From assembly GCF_900496995.4 (NCBI RefSeq), contig NC_044012.1, positions 24,528,759 through 24,592,758 of the forward strand: DNA of 64,000 nt. The letters are read 5' to 3'. The DNA is from Aquila chrysaetos chrysaetos (Eukaryota > Chordata > Aves > Accipitriformes > Accipitridae). The stretch's first letter is position 1. Every line of letters begins with the position of its first letter. Under the pieces are notes generated by a model that searched no databases, had not been told where the DNA came from, and saw only the letters and a list, made by a program, of their open reading frames with translations. The translations under genes were made by a program, and so were the position numbers. Below are positions 2,736 to 35,533 of the stretch, in pieces.

Positions 2736-5700
2736 ATGGGTAAGAGATACTCTGCAGCCTCCCCGCAGCCCACATGCAGCTCCAAGCCTTGTAGCCGCAT
2801 CCTGGATCTGGCTCCAGCCACTGCCTGGAGGCTGCAGACATCCCACCTTGAAACCCATTTGTGGACTGGTAGGTTTGTTCCTCTGCAGCACTGCAGGAAG
2901 GAGAAGAGTGGGACTGAAGCTTGGCGTGTTGTCTGACTGGTGCCAGAGGTTTCTATTGCCTCGCTACCGTTCTGCTTCCAGGGGCTTCTTTTTGCCTTGA
3001 AAAGCTACTTGCATGTGGCTGTAGCATCCGTGCTGAGGGGGAGCCTCCCCTTCTGCTGCGGAATCGTCAGGGAGACAAGAAACCAGACTTATTTTCCAGG
3101 CTAGACCTTCAATACTGACGTGGTTCTCTGTGTAAGCTCTCTCTCCTTCACTGCTGTTGGAGAAGCGATCAGTGAGGTGCTCAGAGGATGCAGAAGGGAA
3201 CTGAGCAGTGGTTTGATCCATGATACGCCAGGTGGCACTTGAGAGAGGATTCCTCTCCTGCATCTGTGATTTGTCAGTGCCATAACAAGACTAGATGCTG
3301 GTCACAGAGGTCCCCATTGACAGCGGGGGTGGGAGAAGGTCCATCGGGTAGGACAGAGTCTTCTGAATAGGCACCTTTTAGGACGTAGACGTTTCTCATT
3401 TTATTCTTCTCTTCTTCTCGAATCAGACAGATGCAGAGTTCAGTGCTACGAGTACCCCACCTGCCCGGATGTTGTGAAAGGCAAGTCCTCTTGAGCATGT
3501 TTTGGAGTGGGTGGTGTTTGGGAAAGAGCTCCGTGTTAGTGGAGACCACCATTAACTGTGTGTGTTATAGCCTCTCCAAAGGGAGAAGGCTGTAACTATA
3601 TGGAGATCCCACTTTTGTCCTCTATACCTCTGGGTCCGTAATGGAAGCAGGGTTGGACAGTTAACAGTGACCAAGGAGGAAGGTTGTAGCATCCAGAAAA
3701 ATAAGTTCAGTCCTATCTGAGAGTCGTTGAAGCTTTTCTTTTCCTTTCTGGCTGGCTCATGGTGTGTTTTAAAGGAAGCTTTCTATATACCCAGCTCCCA
3801 GAGAGGAGGTTGCCTACGTGACCTGTACCTACAGGGAAACATGCATCGACCAACCTGACTTCCTGGCCACCATCGATCTCAACCCCAGATCTCCATATTA
3901 TTGCCAGGTACCTGTTGTCTTGACTGTGTTTTATTGGGGCTGGTGACTAGCTGCTGGCTCTGTGCTTTATAGTGCCTCCAGATTCAGGGACATCTACTCT
4001 TTTTTGCTGGGGAAAATCAGATTGCTTGATAGCCACTCTGTCATGCCAGCTGTCTGTTATGCCTTACACCTTCTTGTCTTCCTGCATCTTCTGTCTCATC
4101 CACCCTGAACTGACTTTTTTCCCTTGCTGCCTGTTCATAACCTGCCAAGACCCATCTGGGAAACCCCTTGTGAGTTTTGTCATGACAGGTCTACTTCTTG
4201 CTTCTCCACCGGTATTATGCGTGAGATAGGGATGTGTCTGCTAGGAATCTCACCTTCCTGGTCTCTTTCCACTGTCTTGTGTATGCCTCGCTCTAGTTGA
4301 ATCACCTCTGTCTCTGTGTCCCGGGGGACAAGTTGGCTCTGACTCACTTCCCAACTCACTCCCAGAGAATCTTGGTGCTGCTAGTGAGTTTTTGAGCAAA
4401 TGCTCTGAATCACCCCTGTCAGTGGCTGCTCAGCATGGAAAATGGTCTCCAGTGACCCAGGTGGTTTAGGGTATCCAGCACTTTTGCAGAGTTCAGCAAT
4501 TTTCTACTGTGCTGCAATGTTGGCGATGTTCTGTTATGCACTGTACCAACCTGTCTGCTGTCATCCTAAATGGGAAGTTGGAGTTTAACCTGTCTCCAAA
4601 GGCTGCAAAGACACATTATCTACATCTACTGTGCATCTTTGAACTGATCAGTCACATTTAACATTTCCGGAGATCTCCTTTGGTGCGGGCACTGGTGTTA
4701 TCATCTCTATGTTGCTGGTTGCATTAGGGTCCCCATTTCTCCGTGCCTCCCTGTGCGAACCCTAACTCTACCTTGAGTGCCTAGGTGATTCACCGCCTGC
4801 CCATGCCCAACCTCAAAGATGAGCTGCATTCCTCGGGGTGGAGCGCTGGCTGCCCCTGCTTTGACGATACCACAACGAAAAGGACAAGCTGATTCTTCCC
4901 TGTTTGATTTCTTCCCGCATTTACGTGGTGGAGTGGGTTCACAGTGCCGGGCTCCCAAGCTGTGTAAGGTATGCCTGAGGTGATTCAAAGACAAGCTTCT
5001 GGGAAGGAGTTGGGGAACTAGTGCTTCTTGAATAATGTAGAGGGAAGAAGGGTTCTCTCCTCATCTTCTCTCCACCCTGATTTTAGAGAGCTGGGTCACT
5101 TTTTCCCTCTCGGCTCTCTCCTTTTCAGACCAAGGAAGGCTCCGATCATCATTGCGTTCCGTTCTGTGTGCCTGTTGCACAGAGAGAGTCTAATAACGGG
5201 AAGTCACGCAACACACCACACCTGCCCCCCTCCCAAATAGTGAGGCGGACAGACAAGCTGTTATGAGTTAGGTGGTTGCTGCACTCTTGTTGTCTGTTCA
5301 GAGGGGAGCTCAGAGGCTTCTGTGCTCCTCTCGAAGGAGGAGCAGGCCCTAGCAAGTGTGAGTTCTGGGAAAGAAAGCTCCGGCAAGCGTCAGAGATTTT
5401 CAGAAGTCTCTGATGGCCAAAGGCTCTGCCAGGGAGTGTGAAATGAGCTGAGCAGTCAGAGGCTGAAGTGTGTGTGCGTCAACTTTTTTCAGATGATTGA
5501 GCCAGTGGATGTCTTCTGGAAGTGCAACAAGGGATACCTCAATATACCTCGCAGCCTGCCTAATGGCGATATTCTGATTGCCAACACAGGAGATCCATCT
5601 GGCAATGCGAAAGGTACTTTGCCCTTTAATAACTCCATGAACAAACTGATTGGTTGGAAGTGGAGTATGTGATATTTCGTCCATCCCCTTTTTGTATCAC

Positions 5701-8539
5701 AGGTGGATTTATTGTGCTGGATGGAGAGACCTTTGAGCTGAAGGGGAACTGGGAGAATGAGTGTGACAGCCCGCCGAGTGGATATGACTTCTGTTACAAG
5801 CCACGCCACAACGTTCTGGTCAGCTCTGCCGGAGTAGTCCCAAAATGTGTGGGATATGGATTCAGTCCCGATGACTTCAAGAAAGGTGAGGGAATATGGG
5901 TGCAAGTGCTGAGCCAGAACTCACCGAGGTGGTGGGAGGGTGTCGATGCCGTCAAAGAAAGGGCCAGAGCTGGTGAGAGGACACAGGCAGATTTCTTCCC
6001 CAATGGCCCATTTTACAGACACGGCTACAGGACGTGCAGCATCTGTCCTTAAGGCAGGCTGGTTCCTGTCTTCTCCCACTGCTCCCTAAATCACCGCAGT
6101 TTCTCTGCTGATTCTGGCTCGTCGCTGCCATGGCTGTCCCTGCCTGTGAGCATTTTGGGGAGGGATTAGGGTAGCCCTCCCTCTTCTGATGTGGTTTTCC
6201 TTTTCCTCAGGGGTCTTTGGGCGCCGCCTGAACGTGTGGAACTTGTCCTGCCGCAGCCCTCACCCAGTGCTTTGACCTTGGGGGAGGACTCTCTGCCCCT
6301 GAGCGTTAAATTCCTCCACAACCCCGATGCTGCCGAGGGATATGTCAGCTGTGCCCTGAGTGGCATCGTTCTACCGCTTCTACAAGTGCGAGGCAAGTAT
6401 TGTGCCAGCAGCCAGGGGAGACCCCGGCCGTGGTGAGCTACAGAGGGATTGAGAAGCACACAGAAGAAATTTGGGGTAGCAGAGGAGAAAGAAGGAGGCG
6501 TGCGGAGAGGGCACTATCCAGACCCTGCTTTGGATGTGTGTGCTAGAACGAGAGGAGTCTGTTCTTCCACTGAGTGTAAAGGAAGCCCATCATGACCATC
6601 TAGGATGAACATCTGGGGGATTAATTTGAGCGATGAAGACCAGCCTTGCTGTTGGTATCAGACGATGCTGTCCTAATTGTGTCTGCTCATAGTAGCTGGG
6701 TGCAGCGGTTAGCCTTCCTCAGGCAACTTTGCCTAGCTGTGCAGTGTGTGAGTGCAGGGGAGTGCACATCTTGCCTGACCAGCCAGGAACGCTCATGGTG
6801 CGGTGCCTGTGTTTCTTGTGCAGAGAGACAACTGGGCAGTGGAGGAGGTGATTCGGATACCGGCCAAGGACGTGACGGGATGGATTATGCCCAAGATGCC
6901 AGGTTCGTGTGCCCTGAGGTGGTGTTTCCTTTTTCTTCCGGGGCATTGTTTTGCACAGCCTGGCAAAGCCCACTCACTGACCGGCAAAGCCTTGCTGCGT
7001 AAAACACGGCAGAAGGCTCGTTGGAGGGGCTGAGGGGCTGTGCACACCCCCAAGAAGACACTGCTGCCCCAGCTGGAGCCTGTGCACTTGAGCCTGTGAG
7101 ATGTACAGAATGGCAGGGAGAGATGCGAGCTGGGGTTCGATGCAAGGCATGCTTTCTGTTGCTGCTGTCTTCTCTGGAGCTTTTTGTTTCTGTGCCCTAG
7201 CATTCACAGTGGACCTCATCATCTCAATGGATGACAAGTACCTCTATCTCAGCAACTGGCTGCATGGAGACATCCGCCAGTACGAGCTCTCCAAAACCTG
7301 CAAGCCCAGGCTGGTGGGACAGGTAAGGCAGGAGCAGAAAGGCTTGCACTGTTGGTTCCTCGGCAGGATCTGGTGGTGGTTAGATGACAAGGCAACATGT
7401 CTCCCACTGCCTCGCTTACAGGTGTTTGTGGGAGGCAGTATCCTCAGAGGTGGACCCGTGGCTGTGTGTAGAGACGAAGAGCTGAAGTGCCAGCCGGAGC
7501 CCTTGGTGATCAAGGTGAGTTCCGTGGCCTGTTTGCCCTCTGGTGTCCTTTGGACTTTGGCTCTGCTCTGCTAATTCTCTGCCCAGGGTTTCTGGGGTAG
7601 GTCTCCACCACGGAGGTGCCCCCCGTGTCTGCAGCATCTGGTAGCTTGTCTGTGTTGGGAGGGGAGGCAGCCACTCTGCTCTGCTCTGCTCCCCTGCTCC
7701 TGCTTGTGCTTGACTGCTCAAAGAAAGAAGCCAGTAACATCACTGCTGTCTGTTGTGCCTTCAGTGCAAGAGAGTGTACGGCGGCCCTGGTAAAATGCAG
7801 CTCAGCGTGGATGGCAAGAGGCTGTACGTCACCAACTCCTTATACAGCACATGGGACAAGCAGTTCTACCCGAACTTGGTCAAGTAAGAAACATTTGGGA
7901 GACAAGGGGCCTCTTTTGCATGGCCTCTCTGTTAGAAACAGGAAAGGTGCCTCATCAGGGGGCCTACAAGGACGCGTTTGTGATTGCAAGGGGACAGCTC
8001 TTTCTAACACCATCCCCGCAGCTTCCTCATGTTGAATTTCACATTGTGAGTTGACTCACAAACATCTCTGGCTGGGCAAGCTGCAGTGCCAGGGATTGGC
8101 TTGGGAGAGCCTAAGTGTTCAGTCTGAAAGGTGGAGTGAATCCATCTACGGATCTCTGGGAGCCAGGCCACGTCTCTGCTACAGCATCTCCCAGTGTATC
8201 CACCAGAGATGTTTTGATTTAGCAAAGCAGACGATGATCTCCAACACCAAGGCAAGCTCCAGCCTGCCTGTCACATCATGCCTAGCAGATACGGAACAGG
8301 AGGGTGAAGGGCAGGATCTCTTGAACAGGACCATGGTTTGCTTGTCTGTAATAGCTGTGCTCTCGTCCCCTCACAGGGAAGGCTCTGTCATGCTGCAGAT
8401 TGATGTGGACACTGAGAAAGGAGGCCTGACCGTGAACAAGAACTTCCTGGTGGATTTTGGAAAGGAACCCAATGGGCCTTGCCTTGCCCATGACATCCAC
8501 TTCCCTTGTGGGGATTCCACCACCGATATCTTGGCCTAG
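2736..8539 (+). CDS. SELENBP1-like gene, copy 1 (frameshifted as sequenced)
   Basis: This is the same 12-exon gene as copy 2. Exons read 2736-2739, 3427-3480, 3795-3907, 4785-4968, 5493-5613, 5703-5885, 6211-6392, 6824-6902, 7201-7322, 7422-7514, 7765-7883 and 8377-8539 (stop TAG). Splice sites match copy 2, including GC donors after exons 2 and 7. Exon 4 is two bases shorter than in copy 2, and exon 7 has three extra single bases, so as written exon 4 is frameshifted and exon 7 is read in a wrong frame over its middle. Introns carry the same kind of one-base indels at a similar density, which points to consensus error rather than loss of selection. If the errors are artificial, the product is the same cysteine-rich SELENBP1-like protein described for copy 2. 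A genuine very young pseudogene is the alternative. Confidence 0.75.
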
Positions 8540-18645: not shown

Positions 18646-18653
18646 TATATAAG
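18646..18653 (+). promoter_or_regulatory. TATA box of SELENBP1-like copy 2
   Basis: TATATAAG lies 117 bases before the last base preceding the ATG, directly after a C-rich stretch. It is conserved with copy 1 and resembles the TATATATT motif before the third gene. Confidence 0.7.
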
Positions 18654-18769: not shown

Positions 18770-21700
18770 ATGGGTAAGAGATACTCTGCAGCCTCCCCGC
18801 AGCCCACAGCAGCTCCAAGCCTTGTAGCCGCATCCTGGATCTGGCTCCAGCCACTGCCTGGAGGCTGCAGACATCCCACCTTGAAACCCATTTGTGGACT
18901 GGTAGGTTTGTTCCTCTGCAGCACTGCAGGAAGGAGAAGAGTGGGACTGAAGCTTGGCGTGTTGTCTGACTGGTGCCAGAGGTTTCTATTGCCTCGCTAC
19001 CGTTCTGCTTCCAGGGGCTTCTTTTTGCCTTGAAAAGCTACTTGCATGTGGCTGTAGCATCCGTGCTGAGGGGAGCCTCCCCTTCTGCTGCGGAATCGTC
19101 AGGGAGACAAGAAACCAGACTTATTTTCCAGGCTAGACCTTCAATACTGACGTGGTTCTCTGTGTAAGCTCTCTCTCCTTCACTGCTGTTGGAGAAGCGA
19201 TCAGTGAGGTGCTCAGAGGATGCAGAAGGGAACTGAGCAGTGGTTTGATCCATGATACGCCAGGTGGCACTTGAGAGAGGATTCCTCTCCTGCATCTGTG
19301 ATTTGTCAGTGCCATAACAAGACTAGATGCTGGTCACAGAGGTCCCCATTGACAGCGGGGGTGGGAGAAGGTCCATCGGGTAGGACAGAGTCTTCTGAAT
19401 AGGCACCTTTTAGGACGTAGACGTTTCTCATTTTATTCTTCTCTTCTTCTCGAATCAGACAGATGCAGAGTTCAGTGCTACGAGTACCCCACCTGCCCGG
19501 ATGTTGTGAAAGGCAAGTCCTCTTGAGCATGTTTTGGAGTGGGTGGTGTTTGGGAAAGAGCTCCGTGTTAGTGGAGACCACCATTAACTGTGTGTGTTAT
19601 AGCCTCTCCAAAGGGAGAAGGCTGTAACTATATGGAGATCCACTTTTGTCCTCTTACCTCTGGGTCCGTAATGGAAGCAGGGTTGGACAGTTAACAGTGA
19701 CCAAGGAGGAAGGTTGTAGCATCCAGAAAAATAAGTTCAGTCCTATCTGAGAGTCTGTTGAAGCTTTTCTTTTCCTTTCTGGCTGGCTCATGGTGTGTTT
19801 TAAAGGAAGCTTTCTATATACCCAGCTCCCAGAGAGGAGGTTGCCTACGTGACCTGTACCTACAGGGAAACATGCATCGACCAACCTGACTTCCTGGCCA
19901 CCATCGATCTCAACCCCAGATCTCCATATTATTGCCAGGTACCTGTGTCTTGACTGTGTTTTTATTGGGCTGGTGACTAGCTGCTGGCTCTGTGCTTTAT
20001 AGTGCCTCCAGATTCAGGACATCTACTCTTTTTTGCTGGGGAAAATCAGATTGCTTGATAGCCACTCTGTCATGCCAGCTGTCTGTTTATGCCTTACACC
20101 TTCTTGTCTTCCTGCATCTTTCTGTCTCATCCACCCTGAACTGACTTTTTTCCCTTGCTGCCTGTTCATAACCTGCCAAGACCCATCTGGGAAACCCCTT
20201 GTGAGTTTTGTCATGACAGGTCTACTTCTTGCTTCTCCACCGGTATTATGCGTGAGATAGGGATGTTGTCTGCTAGGAATCTCACCTTCCTGGTCTCTTT
20301 CCACTGTCTTGTGTATGCCTCGCTCTAGTTGAATCACCTCTGTCTCTGTGTCCCGGGGACAAGTTGGCTCTGACTCACTTCCCAACTCACTCCCAGAGAA
20401 TCTTGGTGCTGCTAGTGAGTTTTTGAGCAAATGCTCTGAATCACCCTGTCAGTGGCTGCTCAGCATGGAAAATGGTCTCCAGTGACCCAGGTGGTTTAGG
20501 GTATCCAGCACTTTTGCAGAGTTCAGCAATTTTCTACTGTGCTGCAATGTTGGCGATGTTCTGTTATGCACTGTACCAACCTGTCTGCTGTCATCCTAAA
20601 TGGGAAGTTGGAGTTTACCTGTCTCCAAAGGTTGCAAAGACACATTATCTACATCTACTGTGCATCTTTGAACTGATCAGTCACATTTAACATTTCCGGA
20701 GATCTCCTTTGGTGCGGGCACTGGTGTTATCATCTCTATGTTGCTGGTTGCATTAGGGTCCCCATTTCTCCGTGCCTCCCTGTGCGAACCCTAACTCTAC
20801 CTTGAGTGCCTAGGTGATTCACCGCCTGCCCATGCCCAACCTCAAAGATGAGCTGCATTCCTCGGGGTGGAGCGCTGGCTGCCCCTGCTTTGACGATACC
20901 ACAACGAAAAGGAACAAGCTGATTCTTCCCTGTTTGATTTCTTCCCGCATTTACGTGGTGGATGTGGGTTCACAGTGCCGGGCTCCCAAGCTGTGTAAGG
21001 TATGCCTGAGGTGATTCAAAGACAAGCTTCTGGGAAGGAGTTGGGAACTAGTGCTTCTTGAATAATGTAGAGGGAAGAAGGGTTCTCTCCTCATCTTCTC
21101 TTCCACCCTGATTTTAGAGAGCTGGGTCACTTTTCCCTCTCGGCTCTCTCCTTTTCAGACCAAGGAAGGCTCCGATCATCATTGCGTTCCGTTCTGTGTG
21201 CCTGTTGCACAGAGAGAGTCTAATAACGGGAAGTCACGCAACACACCACACCTGCCCCCCTCCCAAATAGTGAGGCGGACAGACAAGCTGTTATGAGTTA
21301 GGTGTTGCTGCACTCTTGTTGTCTGTGCAGAGGGGAGCTCAGAGGCTTCTGTGCTCCTCTCGAAGGAGGAGCAGGCCCTAGCAAGTGTGAGTTCTGGGAA
21401 AGAAAGCTCCGGCAAGCGTCAGAGATTTTCAGAAGTCTCTGATGGCCAAAGGCTCTGCCAGGGAGTGTGAAATGAGCTGAGCAGTCAGAGGCTGAAGTGT
21501 GTGTGCGTCAACTTTTTTCAGATGATTGAGCCAGTGGATGTCTTCTGGAAGTGCAACAAGGGATACCTCAATATACCTCGCAGCCTGCCTAATGGCGATA
21601 TTCTGATTGCCAACACAGGAGATCCATCTGGCAATGCGAAAGGTACTTTGCCCTTTAATAACTCCATGAACAAACTGATTGGTTTGGAAGTGGAGTATGT

Positions 21701-24564
21701 GATATTTCGTCCATCCCCTTTTTGTATCACAGGTGGATTTATTGTGCTGGATGGAGAGACCTTTGAGCTGAAGGGGAACTGGGAGAATGAGTGTGACAGC
21801 CCGCCGAGTGGATATGACTTCTGTTACAAGCCACGCCACAACGTTCTGGTCAGCTCTGCCGGAGTAGTCCCAAAATGTGTGGGATATGGATTCAGTCCCG
21901 ATGACTTCAAGAAAGGTGAGGGAATATGGGTGCAAGTGCTGAGCCAGAACTCACCGAGGTGGTGGGAGGGTGTCGATGCCGTCAAAGAAAGGGCCAGAGC
22001 TGGTGAGAGGACACAGGCAGATTTCTTCCCCAATGGCCCATTTTACAGACACGGCTACAGGACGTGCAGCATCTGTCCTTAAGGCAGGCTGGTTCCTGTC
22101 TTCTCCCACTGCTCCCTAAATCACCGCAGTTTCTCTGCTGATTCTGGCTCGTCGCTGCCATGGCTGTCCCTGCCTGTGAGCATTTTGGGGAGGGATTAGG
22201 GTAGCCCTCCCTCTTCTGATGTGGTTTTCCTTTTCCTCAGGGGTCTTTGGGCGCCGCCTGAACGTGTGGAACTTGTCCTGCCGCAGCCTCACCCAGTGCT
22301 TTGACCTGGGGGAGGACTCTCTGCCCCTGAGCGTTAAATTCCTCCACAACCCCGATGCTGCCGAGGGATATGTCAGCTGTGCCCTGAGTGGCATCGTCTA
22401 CCGCTTCTACAAGTGCGAGGCAAGTATTGTGCCAGCAGCCAGGGGAGACCCGGCCGTGGTGAGCTACAGAGGGATTGAGAAGCACACAGAAGAAATTTGG
22501 GGTAGCAGAGAGAAAGAAGGAGGCGTGCGGAGAGGGCACTATCCAGACCCTGCTTTGGATGTGTGTGCTAGAACGAGAGGAGTCTGTTCTTCCACTGAGT
22601 GTAAAGGAAGCCCATCATGACCATCTAGGATGAACATCTGGGGGATTAATTTGAGCGATGAAGACCAGCCTTGCTGTTGGTATCAGACGATGCTGTCCTA
22701 ATTGTGTCTGCTCATAGTAGCTGGGTGCAGCGGTAGCCTTCCTCAGGCAACTTTGCCTAGCTGTGCAAGTGTGTGAGTGCAGGGGAGTGCACATCTTGCC
22801 TGACCAGCCAGGAACGCTCATGGTGCGGTGCCTGTGTTTCTTGTGCAGAGAGACAACTGGGCAGTGGAGGAGGTGATTCGGATACCGGCCAAGGACGTGA
22901 CGGGATGGATTATGCCCAAGATGCCAGGTTCGTGTGCCCTGAGGTGGTGTTTCCTTTTTCTTCCGGGGCATTGTTTTGCACAGCCTGGCAAAGCCCACTC
23001 ACTGACCGGCAAAGCCTTGCTGCGTAAACACGGCAGAAGGCTCGTTGGAGGGGCTGAGGGGCTGTGCACACCCCCAAGAAGACACTGCTGCCCCAGCTGG
23101 AGCCTGTGCACTTGAGCCTGTGAGATGTACAGAATGGCAGGGAGAGATGCGAGCTGGGGTTCGATGCAAGGCATGCTTTCTGTTGCTGCTGTCTTCTCTG
23201 GAGCTTTTTGTTTCTGTGCCCTAGCATTCACAGTGGACCTCATCATCTCAATGGATGACAAGTACCTCTATCTCAGCAACTGGCTGCATGGAGACATCCG
23301 CCAGTACGAGCTCTCCAAAACCTGCAAGCCCAGGCTGGTGGGACAGGTAAGGCAGGAGCAGAAAGGCTTGCACTGTTGGGTTCCTCGGCAGGATCTGGTG
23401 GTGGTTAGATGACAAGGCAACATGTCTCCCACTGCCTCGCTTACAGGTGTTTGTGGGAGGCAGTATCCTCAGAGGTGGACCCGTGGCTGTGTGTAGAGAC
23501 GAAGAGCTGAAGTGCCAGCCGGAGCCCTTGGTGATCAAGGTGAGTTCCGTGGCCTGTTTGCCCTCTGGTGTCCTTTGGACTTTGGCTCTGCTCTGCTAAT
23601 TCTCTGCCCAGGGTTTCTGGGGTAGGTCTCCACCACGGAGGTGCCCCCGTGTCTGCAGCATCTGGTAGCTTGTCTGTGTTGGGAGGGGAGGCAGCCACTC
23701 TGCTCTGCTCTGCTCCCCTGCTCCTGCTTGTGCTTGACTGCTCAAAGAAAGAAGCCAGTAACATCACTGCTGTCTGTTGTGCCTTCAGTGCAAGAGAGTG
23801 TACGGCGGCCCTGGTAAAATGCAGCTCAGCGTGGATGGCAAGAGGCTGTACGTCACCAACTCCTTATACAGCACATGGGACAAGCAGTTCTACCCGAACT
23901 TGGTCAAGTAAGAAACATTTGGGAGACAAGGGGCCTCTTTTGCATGGCCTCTCTGTTAGAAACAGGAAAGGTGCCTCATCAGGGGGCCTACAAGGACGCG
24001 TTTGTGATTGCAAGGGGACAGCTCTTTCTAACACCATCCCCGCAGCTTCCTCATGTTGAATTTCACATTGTGAGTTGACTCACAAACATCTCTGGCTGGG
24101 CAAGCTGCAGTGCCAGGGATTGGCTTGGGAGAGCCTAAGTGTTTCAGTCTGAAAGGTGGAGTGAATCCATCTACGGATCTCTGGGAGCCAGGCCACGTCT
24201 CTGCTACAGCATCTCCCAGTGTATCCACCAGAGATGTTTTGATTTAGCAAAGCAGACGATGATCTCCAACACCAAGGCAAGCTCCAGCCTGCCTGTCACA
24301 TCATGCCTAGCAGATACGGAACAGGAGGGTGAAGGGCAGGATCTCTTGAACAGGACCATGGTTTGCTTGTCTGTAATAGCTGTGCTCTCGTCCCCTCACA
24401 GGGAAGGCTCTGTCATGCTGCAGATTGATGTGGACACTGAGAAAGGAGGCCTGACCGTGAACAAGAACTTCCTGGTGGATTTTGGAAAGGAACCCAATGG
24501 GCCTTGCCTTGCCCATGACATCCACTTCCCTTGTGGGGATTCCACCACCGATATCTTGGCCTAG
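18770..24564 (+). CDS. Cysteine-rich SELENBP1-like protein, intact copy 2
   Basis: Twelve exons (18770-18773, 19459-19512, 19826-19938, 20814-20999, 21522-21642, 21733-21915, 22241-22419, 22849-22927, 23225-23346, 23447-23539, 23789-23907, 24402-24564) join in frame into 471 residues, against 472 in human SELENBP1. Exon 1 codes only ATG plus one base. The family motifs [32 protein letters not shown] and VDFGKEP are present. By family knowledge the fold is a beta-propeller-like methanethiol oxidase of the cytosol. However, HHSGW has become HSSGW (S73), HTSHC has become NIPRS (136-140), and the CSSC pair has become GCPC (79-82). It has 25 cysteines by my count, against 14 in the third gene. Oxidase activity is therefore doubtful. 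Introns 2 and 7 use GC donors. Open exons, splice sites and promoter suggest a working, diverged gene. Confidence 0.9.
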
Positions 24565-25223: not shown

Positions 25224-25229
25224 AATAAA
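25224..25229 (+). terminator. Poly(A) signal of SELENBP1-like copy 2
   Basis: AATAAA lies about 660 bases after the stop, equivalent to the signal at 9,198 in copy 1. The 24,565-25,223 stretch is read as 3' UTR. Confidence 0.6.
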
Positions 25230-27714: not shown

Positions 27715-30700
27715 ATGCAGGCGGGATCGTCTCCTTCCGCTGCTCATCAGCAGGTGAGATCCAACCCAACCTCCAGCACAGGTAAGACATCTCTCCGTTG
27801 ACTGCAGCTTGCTCTCAAGAGGAGAAGGCTTGGGTCTGTTGGTGGCTTGGTGCCTTCTGGCTGTGGACTTTGCTCCAGAGTCCTCCTAAACTTGTTTGGA
27901 GCTGGGTCTTGTGGGTTTGTTACTCTGACACCCAGAAAGCATAAAGTAAAAAGAAACGTGGGGATGAATGTGGTGTTTTCTCTGGCCAGGAAAGGGTTTC
28001 TTTTCTCGAGCTACTAAAAGTGCCAGGAAATGTTTAGGTAGACTGATGATTAAAAGCCTTCTAACTATTCTCTCATTTATTCAACTGCAACTTGTACAGA
28101 CTGTGCTTGCTATAGTCAGGTATACCATGGCAGGGAGTCCGCAGTGCAAAGTCTGGCTTTGATGGGGCTATTTTTCCAGGAGTAATATAAGGAGTAGGGA
28201 GAAGCAAGCTGAAGGGGTGGTTTCTCAGTTCTTCAGGTAGGAGCGTTTCCCTGGAGGAGCAGGGACACGAGTGATAAATGAGAATAAAAACAAATAAGAA
28301 GCTGATGCAGCAAAGCCAAGTCATACAATTTAGGTGGGGGTTTTCCTCCCTCTCCTCAGGCTTGCTGTCGTAAATGGGGAGAAGGGGTCCTTTTGGTGGT
28401 GGTGGTTGTTTCCTAACAAGCTTTTGTTCAACTGCATTAAGGACAATTTTCTCAGCAGTTTTAAAGTCTTTTGGAGAATGAAGCTGGCAGGTTTCAAAGT
28501 GCCCCGGAGACCCACAGCAGTGTGATGAGCACTCCCAGGATGATGCTAGGGGCTGGTGAGGAGGCTGACGCCTCGAGCACTGAACGTCTTGGGTGGAAAC
28601 AGGCTTTCTGTGCAAAAGCTTTGCATTAATGTCCCCAAACCAAGGCACAGCAAAGTGAAGCCATCCCAAAGAGGGTCAGGAGGAGCCGCAGAGCAGAGCC
28701 TAGGGCTCGGCTTATCCCCCTCCTCACCCCGCAGCAAGGGGATGCTTTCTCCCCACTCAGCTCCCAGGAGAATCCTCTCCCCTCCCTCTGCCCCTGGTGC
28801 AGCAGCCCGGCCATTCTGCCTTTCTTCACTGCTGCCTCCCATCCTCCTCCTCCTTGCAGAAGGACCACAGAGCTTTCAGCATCTCCTTGAGGCCATGCAA
28901 GCCTGGCATTGCCCCTACACATGTTGAGCAACCCTTCCTCTCCACCACAGGGACATGCCGGGAGGCAAAGCGGAGAGACACAGCTGTGAGCCTTGTACCT
29001 TTCTGCACTAGAAATATATCACTGGCCTGTTTGGCTGCCCAGAGCCCCAAACCTTTCTGGGTTCATTTGGATGCATGTGGGCATCCTGGTTCACCTCAGA
29101 CATTGCCATAGAGTGGGAGCATGCACAGCCACTCCAGTGAGTGGTTCCTTTGTAAAAAGGGGATTAAAAAAAGTCACTGTCATCTAATTTCTGTTTGTTT
29201 CTGTTCTTCTCAATGCAGAAAAGTGTGGAGCGTGTGGTCCTGGCTTCGCCTCGCCTCTGGATGCAATGAAAGGCAAGTCTGAAATCCAGGGCAGGCAGGG
29301 AAGAGCCCTGCGCTGTCTGTGATTTAGGTGAAGATTAAAGCAATGCTTTCAAAAGGGCGTTATCAATTAACTCCATTCTCAGAGGATGCTCCCAGCAAGC
29401 GTTAGGGAAGCGATGGTTTCGCTTCTGGCCTGTCCTGAGGCCAAACATCAATTGCATAATGACAGCTTGGTGCCAGAACAAACCTTTTTAGGTTTCATGA
29501 TGGCTTGGGATGGGTCATAGCTTGCAGCAAAGTCACCTGTGTCTTCCTTGTGCAAAACCAAATGGGATTTTTAAGTGTCTCAGAGGCAATTGTATTGCTA
29601 TAGCCCCACGACACCACTACTGGAGCTAAACCTGGGGAGGGAGAGGGGACCATCCTGATTTTTGATTGCACTCTGCTCCTGATGGCTGGGATCACATGAC
29701 AAAACCTCATTCTATAAAAAACAGCCTCACGGGCTGCTTCCTTACATGTCTGGACACTTTGCCTGAGAATCCTTCTTGCCGCATTGCCGAAACACTGGTG
29801 CTCTGATGTGAAGAGACTGATGAATGCATCATCTCCAGCTATCCCTCCCTTAATCCTCTTCTGTAGGGTTTAGCAAACACAACCCTGAAACCTTAGAGTG
29901 CTCTGGAGCTTGCTCATGATCTGTCATTCCTGTCCCTGAACCAAGAAAACAACAATGAGTCTTTAAAACATCCCCGTGTGTTGGCAGGGCTGGACAGTGA
30001 TTTAAATTATTAGCAAATAACACAAAACCTATTGACTCTGCTACTCTGGCAAGTTCCCTTGGGAACTATCTGGTGGCTTCAGTGGTGCTGAGTAACTTTG
30101 GCACCCAAAAAGCTCTTCCATGCAGAAATCTGGCAGGTTGGGCTCCCGAGCAGGTGGTGAGAAGCTCCTTGGTGTCCTTTGGATACCTTGGGAGGTATAT
30201 GAGCTCTGTGGCTGTGTCCCATACCCTGACTTGTGGTGCCACTGCAGCTGCAGGGACAGGATCCCTCAGCGTTTGGCAGCTGCTCTCAAACCCAAGACTG
30301 ACACAGGCACCACTGTATAAAGGTTTATAAAGGCACCATGTTGCAAAGCCAGCTAATACCTGTTTTGGATCAAATCCAAAGGTCCCAAATCACCTCTCTC
30401 TCTGTTTCCCACTGCTCTCTCTTCCTCAGCATTTCCTAAACCAGTTCTTCCCCACTAGCCCTCACTTTGGCAGTACTTTATCCTGACACAACTGAGAGCA
30501 AGTACCACCTCCGCAGTAATAAGCAGACTCTGTGGGGTCTGAATGCCCTTGCTTGAGGGCTGGGTGGTGCTTAGGTCCAGGAGCAAAGCCATTTCCCAGC
30601 AAAGCTGATCACACTTGCTATGGGGAGCAGTGCATGGAGCAGGGAGCATGGCAGACCTGTCGCAGCAAGGACATCCCTGGGGCAGAGCCCTTCTTTTCCC

Positions 30701-33700
30701 AGCGGGATGCCCTGCAGGCAGAGAGCTCTTGCACCACTGTGTCACGGTAGATTTTCGCTGCTTAGTGGGACTATGGGACTGCACAGGAGGTTGGGGGGGC
30801 TTTCTGCCTTTGACTTCAGTCTGGCAAGCACTTCTCATGTGGTTTTAAGGCTTCTCCTGTGTAGATGTGACGGCAACAAGACCCAATGCGCTTTGACTTG
30901 TGTGACTGATAGGATTGGGGAAGGGCTGGCATGTCCTTACAGTCCCAAAGCCGTGGACTTCCTTAGGGACTCTGAGGTCCGGAGATCCCTCCCCAGGGCA
31001 AGGGATCTGAATAAGCCCAAACCCCCACAGGGCACCCCCTGCAAACAGACACCAGCCTAGCGCCTCTGGTACCGCAGAAAGATGGAGATCCACTGCCCCA
31101 TACCTATGGGGAACACACCAGCTCCCTGGGAGGGAGATCTAGGCTGACCAGAGACTCCTGCAAGGTTTTTATTCTGTCAAAGGTGGTTTCTGCTGATGTT
31201 CATGCAACATTTCTGTCTTGAAAGGTCCCCGGGAGGAGATTGTGTATGTGCCCTGCATCTACAGAAACACTGGGAGGAAGAAACCTGACTTTCTGGCCAC
31301 TGTGGATGTCAACCCCAAATCTTCAGACTATTGCCAGGTACCAAATGCTTTATCTCAGTACTAAACTGGCCTGGGAAACAGCTCAGTGCTTGTCCTTCAT
31401 GCTCCACAAAGCTGCTGGCTCAGTACCGAAGGCTGACACCTGTTCAGTTCTCCCCAAGACTCTGAGCCTTCCTGTGCATATGAAATGCATGTAAAATCCA
31501 CTTCACACCCCACCCTTAGGATCCCCTGTGCACCATTGCTCCCCTCTGCAGGGTGAGACTTGCCTGAGGCATCCTGACCCTGTGACAGGGTCTGCGATGC
31601 ACTGAGTTCCCTGGTCTGCCTGTGATCCTGCACTTGGCAGAGGAAAGACCGGTGTAAGCAGGGCTGGGACTTTGCAGGTGATCCACCGCTTGCCCATGCC
31701 CAACCTGGGGGACGAGCTGCACCACTCGGGGTGGAACGCCTGCAGCAGCTGCTTCGGGGATGCCACCAAGAAGCGGAACCGCCTGATCCTCCCCAGCTTC
31801 ATCTCCTCCCGCATCTACGTGGTGGACGTGGGAACTGACCTGCGAGCTCCCAGGCTTTTCAAGGTACCTGGGAGGTGGTGCCAGTACACATTGAAGGCTA
31901 AAGGACTGGGATTGTGGCTTCTGGCTGTGGTGACAGCTTGGCAAAGAGGCTTTAGGGTACATGTAAGAGCTTTGCAGGACCCCAATGCCTGGATGACAGT
32001 ACAGGAAGGCTGTGGAAGGTGGTGGTTCTCCTGCTGATGTGCAAATACCGAGTTCTCCTTCTAGCTCCATGCAGGAGGGAACCAGGGCACACCAGGTGCC
32101 AGGCACAGCACTGCCTGTCAGGTTTACATTCCATGTCTCGCCTGTGGCGTGTCTCTCCAAAGAAGCCCCAGGCATCTGCATGCAGTTTGCCCCAAGCCTG
32201 GGTGTGCGAGGGCCTCGCTGGTGGCCAGTAGCCAGCTTCTTGGGGTGAATGCAGCAGCCACCCCATGTACCGGCATGCCTGGGGATGCAGGACTGTGCAC
32301 GCTCTGCCCCAGCTCACGCGCTCAGCCCCTCTGGCTGCATGGCAAGTCCCATCTTGAGGTCAGGCAGGAGCTGCCCGGCTGCACCACAGAGTAACACCAG
32401 GCTTGCGAACCTGCATTCAGTGCAGCAGTGAACACGCTTCTCACCTGGGATAGCCCGGCACGGAGGATGTGACGGTGCCTGTGAACTCCCGGCAGGTTGT
32501 CAACTCGGAGGACGTCTTCTGGAAGTGCAGCCTGGGCTACCCCCACACCTCCCACTGCCTGGGCAGCGGTGAAATCATGATCAGCACCCTGGGAGACCCG
32601 GCTGGCAGCGGGAAAGGTACCCCAGTCCCCCCAGTCTCCCAGGGAGAGGGTGCCAGGTCAGGAGGAACAGTCCCCACATTCAGAGCTGTCCTGGAGGCTT
32701 CACCTAGGTCTCTCAGCTCATTCAGCAGCCTCATCTGCAGTGGGTCGATTTGTCTGTTGCTGCTTGTTTTATAACATGTAAACTGTTAATGTGGATGATT
32801 TCCTCACTACCAATGTATTTCTGGTTTTGCACCAGGTGGCTTTATTCTGCTGGATGGAGAGACCTTTGAGATCAAGGGGAACTGGGAGAAAGGGGACAAG
32901 ATCCCCCCGATGGGTTATGATTTCTGGTACCAGCCACGCCATAACGTCCTGATCAGCACTGAATGGGGAATCCCAAAATGCCTGGGATATGGGTTTGATC
33001 CAAATGATCTGAAGAAAGGTGAGAAAACAGTTGTTTAAATACTCCAGGAGGGAGATGCTGAGGAGGACTGCAAAAAGGCCAAATTTCAACTCTCTTCTCT
33101 TGCCAGTGAGAGCTGGCATCTACTGGGCATAGATAAAACTGTCCAAGACAGTTTGCTTGCAAAATGAATTTCACACCAGTTCCTAGAGATCCCGTGGATT
33201 TAGAAAAGACAAGCCCAGCCCATTTACTGGAAACACACTTAAGATGCAAGCACCAGAAGTTCAACCCAAGGCAGTACATAAATGCCACTGTTGAGCGGTA
33301 CGTGGGGTTGGATTTCAGCCGTAGGGATGAAAGATGAAGCCCCAGCTCAGCCCAGCTCCTCCCCAAAGGTCACACTGCCCTTCCTACCCCCATCCTAGCG
33401 AGATAGTCACCGTTGGATGCTGGGCATCTTCCCATGGCTTTTGCCAAGGTCCAAAGCAACTGGTGTGTGCTGGTGCAGAGACCATGGGGTTGCCCCTGGG
33501 GAGCTAAAAGGGCTGAGGACTCACCGAACCCATAGCACATCTGCTTGAGACCTTGTGCATCCCCTCTGACCCTGCCTCTGCCCTCCCCTCCCAGGGTGCT
33601 ACGGACGCCGCCTCAACGTGTGGGACTGGACCACTCACACCTACGTCCAGGCCATCGACGTGGGCGAGGATGCGGCCCCCCTGGAGATACGCTTCCTCCA

Positions 33701-35533
33701 CAACCCTGACGCCGCTGAGGGCTACGTCGGCTGCACCATCAGCAGCGCCATCCACCGCTTCTACAAGACCGAGGTACGTGCTCCCCCAGGGTTAGTGGAA
33801 AAGGGGTGCTGCCCCTTGGTTGACCAAGCCACAGGACTATGCGCAGCATCCCGCTTCCCGCACCCCCCACCGTCCTCCCAGCCCAACGCCGGTCCTTGCT
33901 GATGCACACACCACCTCCCGTGCTGTGCAGCTGCCTCCATGCACCCAGAACATGAGCTGGCTTGGGGTAATCTCACCAGAGGACTTGTTCTGACTGGCAG
34001 CAGTTTAGGCTGAAATGATTTAATTTAAAGGAGATTTATTTATACCTTTGTTGTGGATTTACAACAGCCCAAGCAATACTCTTCTTGGTGTCTGTTGTTG
34101 TGCATAATGACGAACTGGGTGAGGAGAGAGAACATCTTTCACCAAACCAGCTAATCTAGCTGGAAAATTAGACAAGTTTTTGGCCCCCAAAGCCCTTCCT
34201 CAGGTCCCAGAGCCCATCTTCCCCATGGCTCTGCAGAGCCAGAGATGGCTGGCAAAGTAGCTGAGCTACAGCCCTAGAGGTGGTGGACGCACACATGCAG
34301 CATCCACCCCAGCACCAGGTCTTATCCTGCCTCCACCATGCACGCTGACCCCCCCGGGGCCGTGCTCTGTCCCGCACCTCCTGCAGCAAGGAGACTGGGC
34401 AGCCGAGAAGGTGATCCAAGTCCCCAGCAAGAAGGTGGAGGGATGGCTTCTCCCAGACATGCCAGGTCAGTGTGTCCCCTGGCTGGGTGCCAAGGTGCTC
34501 CCTGGCTTCCCCAGGCACTGCCGGTGCTGCTGCCGGTGCTGCTGCCGGTGCTGCTGCCTGTTTGTGCAGCTCTGTCATACCCTCCCCAAGGCTTCATCAC
34601 CGACATCCTCATCTCACTGGACGACAGGTTCCTGTACTTCAGCAACTGGCTGCACGGAGACATCCGCCAGTACGACATCTCCAATACCCGCAAGCCCAAG
34701 CTGGTGGGGCAGGTGAGGCAGCAGCAGGCTCCTGGTCACATCCATCTCTTGGGGACAGCTGGAATCAGCCCCTCCTTACTGTCTTGGCCACCCAAACCTT
34801 TGGTCTCCTGCAGGTCTTTCTGGGTGGCAGCATCACCAAGGGAGGACCCGTGACTGTGTGCAGGGACGAAGAGCTGCAGAGCCAGCCAGACCCATTTTTC
34901 ATCAAGGTGAGCCCAGCCATCTCCCCAAAATCCCAGCCTGGGCAGCGGTGGCAAGGCCAGGGAGCGGGTCCTTGCAGTTCTGCTCCACCGCATCCCATGG
35001 GATGGACGTGGCAGCCTGCACCGCTGGTCTTGGGGAGGCAGAGGCGTGTCCCGGTCTGGCACCCTCTGGCAGCATGTCCGCTCCTCTGCCTGCTCCCAGG
35101 GGAAGAGGGTGCCGGGAGGACCCCAGATGATCCAGCTCAGCTTGGACGGGAAGAGGCTGTATGTCACCACGTCCCTCTACAGCGCCTGGGACAGGCAGTT
35201 CTACCCCAACCTCATCAAGTAAGAAAACTTTGATAAAATGAGGATGATCGTACGAGCTCATCAGGCGGGAGGCGCAGACCCCGCAGCTCGGGGACCGAAT
35301 TTCGGCAGCTCCTTGGAGGCAGGAGCAGGTCCCCCCACACCCCAGCCTCCCTGCTCTCGCCCCTCTGCAGGGACGGCTCCGTCATGCTGCAGCTGGACGT
35401 GGACACGGAGCAGGGCGGCCTGACAGTCAACGAGAGCTTCCTGGTGGATTTTGGGAAGGAGCCTGACGGGCCCTGCCTGGCACACGAGATCCGCTACCCC
35501 GGCGGGGACTGCACCTCTGATATTTGGGTTTAG
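27715..35533 (+). CDS. SELENBP1: SELENBP1, methanethiol oxidase (canonical copy)
   Basis: Exons 27715-27781, 29219-29272, 31225-31337, 31678-31863, 32496-32616, 32836-33018, 33595-33773, 34387-34465, 34591-34712, 34814-34906, 35100-35218 and 35371-35533 join in frame into 492 residues. From residue 24 the protein follows human SELENBP1 (KCGACGPG at the start, DIWV at the end). It keeps the motifs HHSGW (93-97), CSSC (100-103), HTSHC (157-161), [20 protein letters not shown] and [10 protein letters not shown]. By family knowledge it is a copper-dependent cytosolic enzyme that oxidises methanethiol to formaldehyde, hydrogen sulfide and hydrogen peroxide. Exon 1 gives about 22 extra N-terminal residues compared with human. 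This start is the only ATG giving the correct phase with the strong donor at 27,782, so the N-terminus is the least certain part. Intron 2 has a GC donor, as in the paralogues. Confidence 0.93.
34521..34560 (+). repeat. 12-bp minisatellite in SELENBP1 intron 8
   Basis: The unit 'ccggtgctgctg' is repeated about three times shortly before the exon 9 acceptor. It is simple sequence with no evident function. Confidence 0.8.

Follow-up and report, generated by a model that had tools for sequence, protein, structure and literature searches.

Within a 64,000-nt stretch of contig C9 from the 1.23-Gb genome of Aquila chrysaetos chrysaetos (hereafter the window), an intact 12-exon paralogue of SELENBP1 occupies positions 18770-24564 of the forward strand. 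We refer to this gene as CysR; it is the last (C3) of three tandem copies and is flanked by two canonical SELENBP1 copies, canL on its left side and canR on its right. Coordinates are window positions unless prefixed C9, which marks contig positions. The cysteine-rich SELENBP1 paralogue that the initial annotation had read from the sequence is real: CysR is an intact gene under purifying selection, with an accelerated branch and no decay. Its role has likely changed relative to canonical SELENBP1. Because CysR appears to have kept the fold, lost the copper centre, and gained thiols, we favour a pseudoenzyme that has taken on a new role, either structural or in binding. The loss of enzyme function taken alone is, judged from sequence, highly probable, while we give roughly an even chance to the fuller reading that this old SELENBP1 duplicate became a pseudoenzyme that now acts as a disulfide-linked structural or scaffold protein, possibly in cornifying epidermis. 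The common view of SELENBP1 is of a single thiol oxidase conserved between bacteria and humans, and a long-kept vertebrate paralogue with the fold but without the copper site would be a natural test of non-catalytic SELENBP1 function.

Splicing of CysR joins the 12 exons into an open 471-aa frame with 25 cysteines and zero internal stops. In the following lines, new cysteines are those absent from both canonical copies, and the active-site, copper-ligand, and lost residues carry human numbering.

18646..18652, + strand: TATA box (TATATAA), 124 nt 5' of the ATG; motif only
18770..18773, + strand: exon 1 (ATGG); the same ATGG followed by gtaagag stands at the candidate canL exon 1
19459..19512, + strand: exon 2; new Cys 8 and 14; GC donor
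19826..19938, + strand: exon 3; new Cys 36
20814..20999, + strand: exon 4; new Cys 80, 97, 112, and 118; active-site His74 changed to Ser and Cys80 lost
21522..21642, + strand: exon 5; copper ligands His137 changed to Asn and His140 to Arg; Cys141 lost
21733..21915, + strand: exon 6; new Cys 180 and 190; active-site Asp189 retained
22241..22419, + strand: exon 7; new Cys 234, 240, and 279; Glu252 changed to Ser; GC donor
22849..22927, + strand: exon 8; none of the new cysteines
23225..23346, + strand: exon 9; new Cys 340
23447..23539, + strand: exon 10; Cys 363 also in canR and Cys 370 also in canL
23789..23907, + strand: exon 11; new Cys 379
24402..24564, + strand: exon 12 with the stop; new Cys 462
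25224..25229, + strand: AATAAA, polyadenylation-like signal; motif only

Introns 2 and 7 have GC-AG ends, with donors at 19513 and 22420, and the other nine of the 11 introns are GT-AG. The intron-2 GC donor is common to CysR, canL, and canR, which supports the CysR gene model; that of intron 7 is specific to CysR, the corresponding donors being gtaag in canL and gtacg in canR. The splice sites and TATA motif originally described are present, and a recount returned the same 25 cysteines for the 471-residue spliced product and the same 14 for canR. The length of 492 residues given for canR was not reproduced: canL and canR each came to 471 aa when ATGG was assumed as exon 1 for both, a search for exon 1 of canR itself having found none. 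The CysR protein matches Pfam SBP56 (PF05694) over residues 11-469 with 569 bits against a cut-off of 34 (E=9.1e-171), and it is identical to canL at 298/471 residues and to canR at 295/471. This family fit suggests that the seven-bladed propeller scaffold is kept in CysR.

We compared the residues on which catalysis depends. According to PMC10362175, mutating any of His73, His74, His137, His140, Asp189, or Glu252 in human SELENBP1 lowers activity by ~90% or more, and in four of those six mutants the copper content is reduced as well. At 14/14 checked positions, with an offset of one, the canonical bird copies have the residue named for the human protein, so human numbering can safely be applied to them. 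All six essential residues are retained in canL and in canR, and CysR retains His73 and Asp189 (2/6), with H74S, H137N, H140R, and E252S at the other four. Among 16 bacterial loci, three of them partial, the six positions are conserved in 14/14, 14/14, 14/15, 14/15, 15/15, and 15/15 of the rows that have a residue there, and they are invariant in 11/11 full-length bacterial rows; the archaeal protein 2ece, aligned with canL, also has the active-site residues. Over the whole family alignment, CysR alters 16 of 72 otherwise invariant positions, and neither HHSGW nor HTSH survives as a motif. The statement in the initial annotation that the surrounding family motifs are intact holds only in part.

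The cysteines to which function has been ascribed in the human protein are likewise disturbed. Selenium binding is ascribed mainly to Cys5 and Cys8 in PMC10362175, which also proposes Cys80 and Cys141 as a possible disulfide. In CysR, Cys5 is kept and Cys8 is Gln, with a new cysteine one residue on, such that Cys5-x-x-Cys8 is broken and reads C-x3-C; the Cys80/Cys141 pair is gone at both ends. These losses would fit a dismantled site. Gly225 and His329, where human variants abolish activity, are retained in CysR. Since four of the six active-site residues are replaced and the selenium pair is broken, the new metal, selenium, or redox role proposed for CysR at the outset loses ground.

A rebuilt copper site, using cysteine or other residues to serve another substrate, thiol-disulfide chemistry, or metal buffering, would correspond to that earlier metal and redox proposal. 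An example is the change from Trp190 to Cys, which lies two positions away from the retained Asp, and Cys190 is predicted to lie in the same strand as Asp188 (bird numbering); such an enzyme would also suit the retention of His73 and Asp189 and a ratio of nonsynonymous to synonymous change (dN/dS, or omega) below 1. However, two of the four lost residues gave way to non-ligands (Asn and Arg) at the copper HxxH motif, and each single human mutant is already ~90% or more inactive in PMC10362175, so we consider an altered enzyme improbable. In the pseudoenzyme reading that we prefer, SELENBP1 would have duplicated long ago with the CysR copy retained, and the copper centre for methanethiol oxidation would have been mostly lost, presumably together with enzymatic activity.

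The age of the duplication and the constraint on CysR were assessed by codon-based comparison of CysR, canL, and canR. Pairwise maximum-likelihood synonymous divergence (dS) is ~1.0 for all three pairs, indicating that the paralogues are old. Because the distance of CysR to canL and canR is about the same as that between the two canonical copies, the suggestion that it is perhaps lineage-specific is unlikely to hold for the paralogue itself. Pairwise dN/dS ranges from 0.17 to 0.31 between CysR and the canonical copies and from 0.08 to 0.10 between canL and canR (three methods). A codon-likelihood script of our own, applied to 470 codons of the three taxa, gave an omega of 0.41 for the CysR branch (dN 0.20, dS 0.50) and of 0.10 and 0.09 for the canonical branches. 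A single common omega was rejected (2dlnL 36.4, p=1.6e-9), as was omega=1 on the CysR branch (2dlnL 15.5, p=8e-5), in tests that use a stationary model, that have dS near saturation, and whose branch averages may mask recent relaxation. A further caveat on these tests is that third-position GC differs among the genes (0.68 in CysR, 0.51 in canL, and 0.79 in canR). In the protein tree, the CysR branch has a length of 0.49, and those of the canonical copies are 0.12 and 0.09. Had CysR evolved neutrally over 0.4-0.6 substitutions per site, it should have picked up ~18-32 nonsense changes, and none are seen in it. A processed or decaying pseudogene is contradicted by the 12 exons, the open frame, and the rejection of omega=1, in agreement with the initial view that this is not random decay.

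We also considered whether CysR is the sister of canR, with which it has C130, C208, C363, and C453 in common. The three branching orders were indistinguishable (approximately unbiased test values of 0.47, 0.60, and 0.35 from IQ-TREE with 1000 replicates, too few per its own warning), and site counts were even (29 vs 32), so this candidate was rejected. Separately, the genome holds in canL and canR two canonical SELENBP1 genes that lie dS ~1.0 apart with omega ~0.1, one with a third-position GC of 0.51 and the other of 0.79.

Cysteine makes up 5.3% of CysR. Fifteen of its cysteines are absent from both canL and canR, five are common to all three proteins, and three cysteines of both canonical copies (C7, C79, and C140) are missing. 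The 15 new cysteines are spread over 8 of the 12 exons (2, 3, 4, 6, 7, 9, 11, and 12); the first description, nearly all exons, thus overstates the spread a little, and one of the gains then listed, C370 (LKC), is no clean gain because canL also has a cysteine there. With cysteine having been chosen as the test residue after the sequence was seen, CysR differs at 118 of the 384 sites where canL and canR agree, and 12 of those changes are to cysteine against a single-step mutational expectation of 3.4-4.3% (P 0.0007-0.005). In a mutation-only multi-step simulation starting from canR, the 16 new cysteines observed compared with a mean of 6.6-6.8 and were reached in 3/3000 runs at kappa 2 and 4/3000 at kappa 4; starting from canL, the 19 observed were reached in 0/3000 runs for each kappa. 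Simulation under LG+G gave a mean of 2.0 and a maximum of 8 in 1000 vs the 15 new cysteines observed.

Two candidate patterns among the cysteines were rejected. A regular C-x5-C spacing occurs four times, yet 31% of random placements reach that number at some spacing from 1 to 12. Placement on the fold was judged with a structural model of a Thauera relative (L014), the secondary structure of which served as a proxy for CysR; the model has a mean predicted local distance difference test score of 80.6, a predicted template modelling (TM) score of 0.86, and a TM score of 0.93 to 2ece, its next structural matches including copper thiocyanate dehydrogenases at ~0.5. Concentration of the new cysteines on one propeller face did not hold, with 3/15 in strand C-D turns (P=0.15) and 4/15 in strands vs 6.2 expected. 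Mapping the cysteines on a structure, which the initial annotation had put forward, thus revealed no significant clustering in the strands or strand C-D turns of this proxy.

The mechanism that we propose is that cysteines accumulated, often at positions beyond the strands of the propeller, and that the folded, thiol-rich protein would form disulfide links, putatively in the cornifying epidermis of feather, claw, beak, or scale. Cysteine gain has precedents in the avian cornification protein EDCRP (PMC4423139) and in the sauropsid HAS/HBS keratins (PMC7086170). One unique peptide places SELENBP1 itself in a proteome of the human hair shaft (PMC5065217), and the gene is among the hair-cycle genes listed for rat (PMC2695260); it is not mentioned in the main text of a chicken egg-tooth proteome paper (PMC12821399) or in the accessible part of a review of skin-appendage proteins (PMC11816140). 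The most specific form of this proposal, that a copper enzyme became a disulfide-linking protein of feather or other cornified tissue and thus opened a route to hard appendages with a starting point other than keratins or the repetitive genes of the epidermis, strikes us as rather unlikely. If CysR were a feather or claw protein, cornified tissues would recruit folded enzymes as cross-linking material.

Several observations weigh against the disulfide-linked structural reading. In the weakest test of the cysteine excess, which takes the canonical copies' own changes as the reference, changes to cysteine number 12/118 in CysR vs 2/61 in the canonical copies (Fisher one-sided p=0.086), a result that is suggestive, and the new cysteines have no significant pattern in spacing or in placement on the Thauera-model proxy. 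The cysteine content of CysR is far below the 36% of EDCRP (PMC4423139). Residual copper binding is possible, given that every single human mutant kept some copper in PMC10362175. Literature searches for SELENBP1 in feather, or in chicken skin or keratin, found nothing, as judged by listings. The SELENBP1 cluster, at C9 24.49-24.56 Mb, lies ~1.05 Mb from and outside a dense block of beta-keratin genes in repeated units at C9 25.61-25.97 Mb, the block being defined by its C9 matches, such that the wider epidermal differentiation complex may extend further; the 146 feather-type beta-keratin matches recorded are of the kind that marks a bird genome. Moreover, linkage of the cluster to the keratin region may be ancestral: since a PI4KB-like neighbour (listed below) suggests an ancestral neighbourhood, being close to the beta-keratin region does not speak for recruitment. 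The assignment of CysR to cornifying tissue is thus a guess.

The same observations bear on whether the dead propeller took up a regulatory or binding role instead, holding a partner, a thiol, or a selenium compound, with its cysteines mostly incidental or reduced. Loss of the active site, which is our strongest result, would serve this explanation well, and a folded propeller under purifying selection whose cysteines have no geometric order is what a binding protein might look like; in addition, Cys57 is retained and the new Cys8 is near the lost cysteine of the CXXC. The cysteine excess over both the mutational and the LG+G expectation would nevertheless need an explanation, and the main selenium site, Cys5/Cys8 (PMC10362175), is the one that is broken in CysR. 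We hold a binding role to be somewhat unlikely. Taken together, what stands of the initial interpretation is a real paralogue that is intact and under selection, whose sequence has shifted and whose role has likely changed; its metal, selenium, and redox components are not supported.

The three CysR copies sit in near-identical tandem units ~16.03 kb apart, one copy in each, spanning 1245-26540 of the window and C9:24513984-24539274; self-matches reach a length of 25 kb (99.5% identity for the longest). In a 9292-column (9.3-kb) alignment of C1, C2, and C3, C2 alone accounted for 41 indel events of a single base and for 3 substitution events, and C3 alone for 2 substitutions plus 1 indel; C1 deviated at its left edge only. 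Spacers between the units differed by 8 single-base indels and 0 substitutions, alignment ends excluded. The outer copies, C1 and C3, encode an identical protein, and the active-site codons of C2 in exons 4 and 5 match those of C3. The frame of C2 is broken by two single-base indels in exon 4 and three in exon 7. Since these exonic indels (5/41 vs 6.2 expected) are neither commoner nor rarer than chance, we read them as unpolished assembly; the frame breaks are probably an assembly error in poorly polished, long-read-like sequence. We rejected C2 as a pseudogene, because nearly all its differences are single-base indels and their exon share is as by chance. The triplication may have arisen very recently, or it may in part be an artefact of the assembly, and the true copy number (one, two, or three) is uncertain.

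The broken C2 frame also enters the case for a relaxed, nearly dead gene, in which the omega of CysR would average older constraint with recent neutral drift and its cysteines would stem from unopposed mutation. An omega four times the canonical value, changes at 16/72 family-invariant positions, and a cysteine excess over the canonical copies' gains that reaches only p=0.086 are compatible with such a history. In contrast, nonsense changes are absent against the ~18-32 expected, all 11 introns have usable ends, omega=1 is rejected for the whole CysR branch, and the indels of C2 are distributed like errors. We find relaxation quite improbable, and a maintained pseudoenzyme is the reading that we carry forward.

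The left flank of C1 (C9:24511926-24513984) contains blocks of 1192 and 629 bp, both of which are also found 5' of C2 and C3, and it lacks the ~2.2 and 2.1 kb that separate those blocks at C2 and C3 (compared with window -4835 to 1244). This difference may reflect a rearrangement or assembly compression.

Five gene copies in all lie in tandem on the + strand, in the order canL, CysR C1, CysR C2, CysR C3, and canR, with canL (locus L011; 11 cysteines) left of the window. The 36 SBP56 (PF05694) profile matches found among the best 40 candidates scored all fall within one 65-kb stretch of C9, a scope that leaves room for weak SBP56 remnants elsewhere in the genome. Other features of the window are as follows.

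2736..8539, + strand: CysR C2 (the first copy in the window and the middle tandem unit); 12 exons as in C3; frame broken
29219..35533, + strand: canR, canonical SELENBP1, exons 2-12; 14 cysteines; six of six active-site residues
49041-50174, + strand: open frame with the PI4KB accessory domain (PF21245), a conserved neighbour gene (E=3.9e-39)

Read against the human gene order, the PI4KB-like exon suggests that the cluster lies in an ancestral neighbourhood.

Bird genes labelled "methanethiol oxidase" by similarity may, on the pseudoenzyme reading, lack oxidase function. We found no description of an avian SELENBP1 paralogue in a literature search conducted mostly at title level. Compared with known systems, CysR is like SELENBP1/methanethiol oxidase (human SELENBP1; C. 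elegans SEMO-1) in its full-length family match, and it has the same exon plan and intron-2 GC donor as the canonical SELENBP1 copies of its own genome. It differs from SELENBP1/methanethiol oxidase in four of the six essential residues, in the broken Cys5-x-x-Cys8, and in having 25 cysteines vs 11-14. Sulfolobus tokodaii ST0059 (PDB 2ece), an archaeal SBP56 protein, was the one clear relative of solved structure that a sequence search found, and it retains those active-site residues which are lost in CysR. The avian cornification proteins EDCRP, EDDM, and the HAS/HBS keratins are bird and reptile genes with cysteine gain for disulfide cross-linking (PMC4423139, PMC11816140, and PMC7086170), but they are unrelated to CysR in sequence, and whereas EDCRP is repetitive and 36% cysteine (PMC4423139), CysR is a predicted folded propeller with 5.3%.

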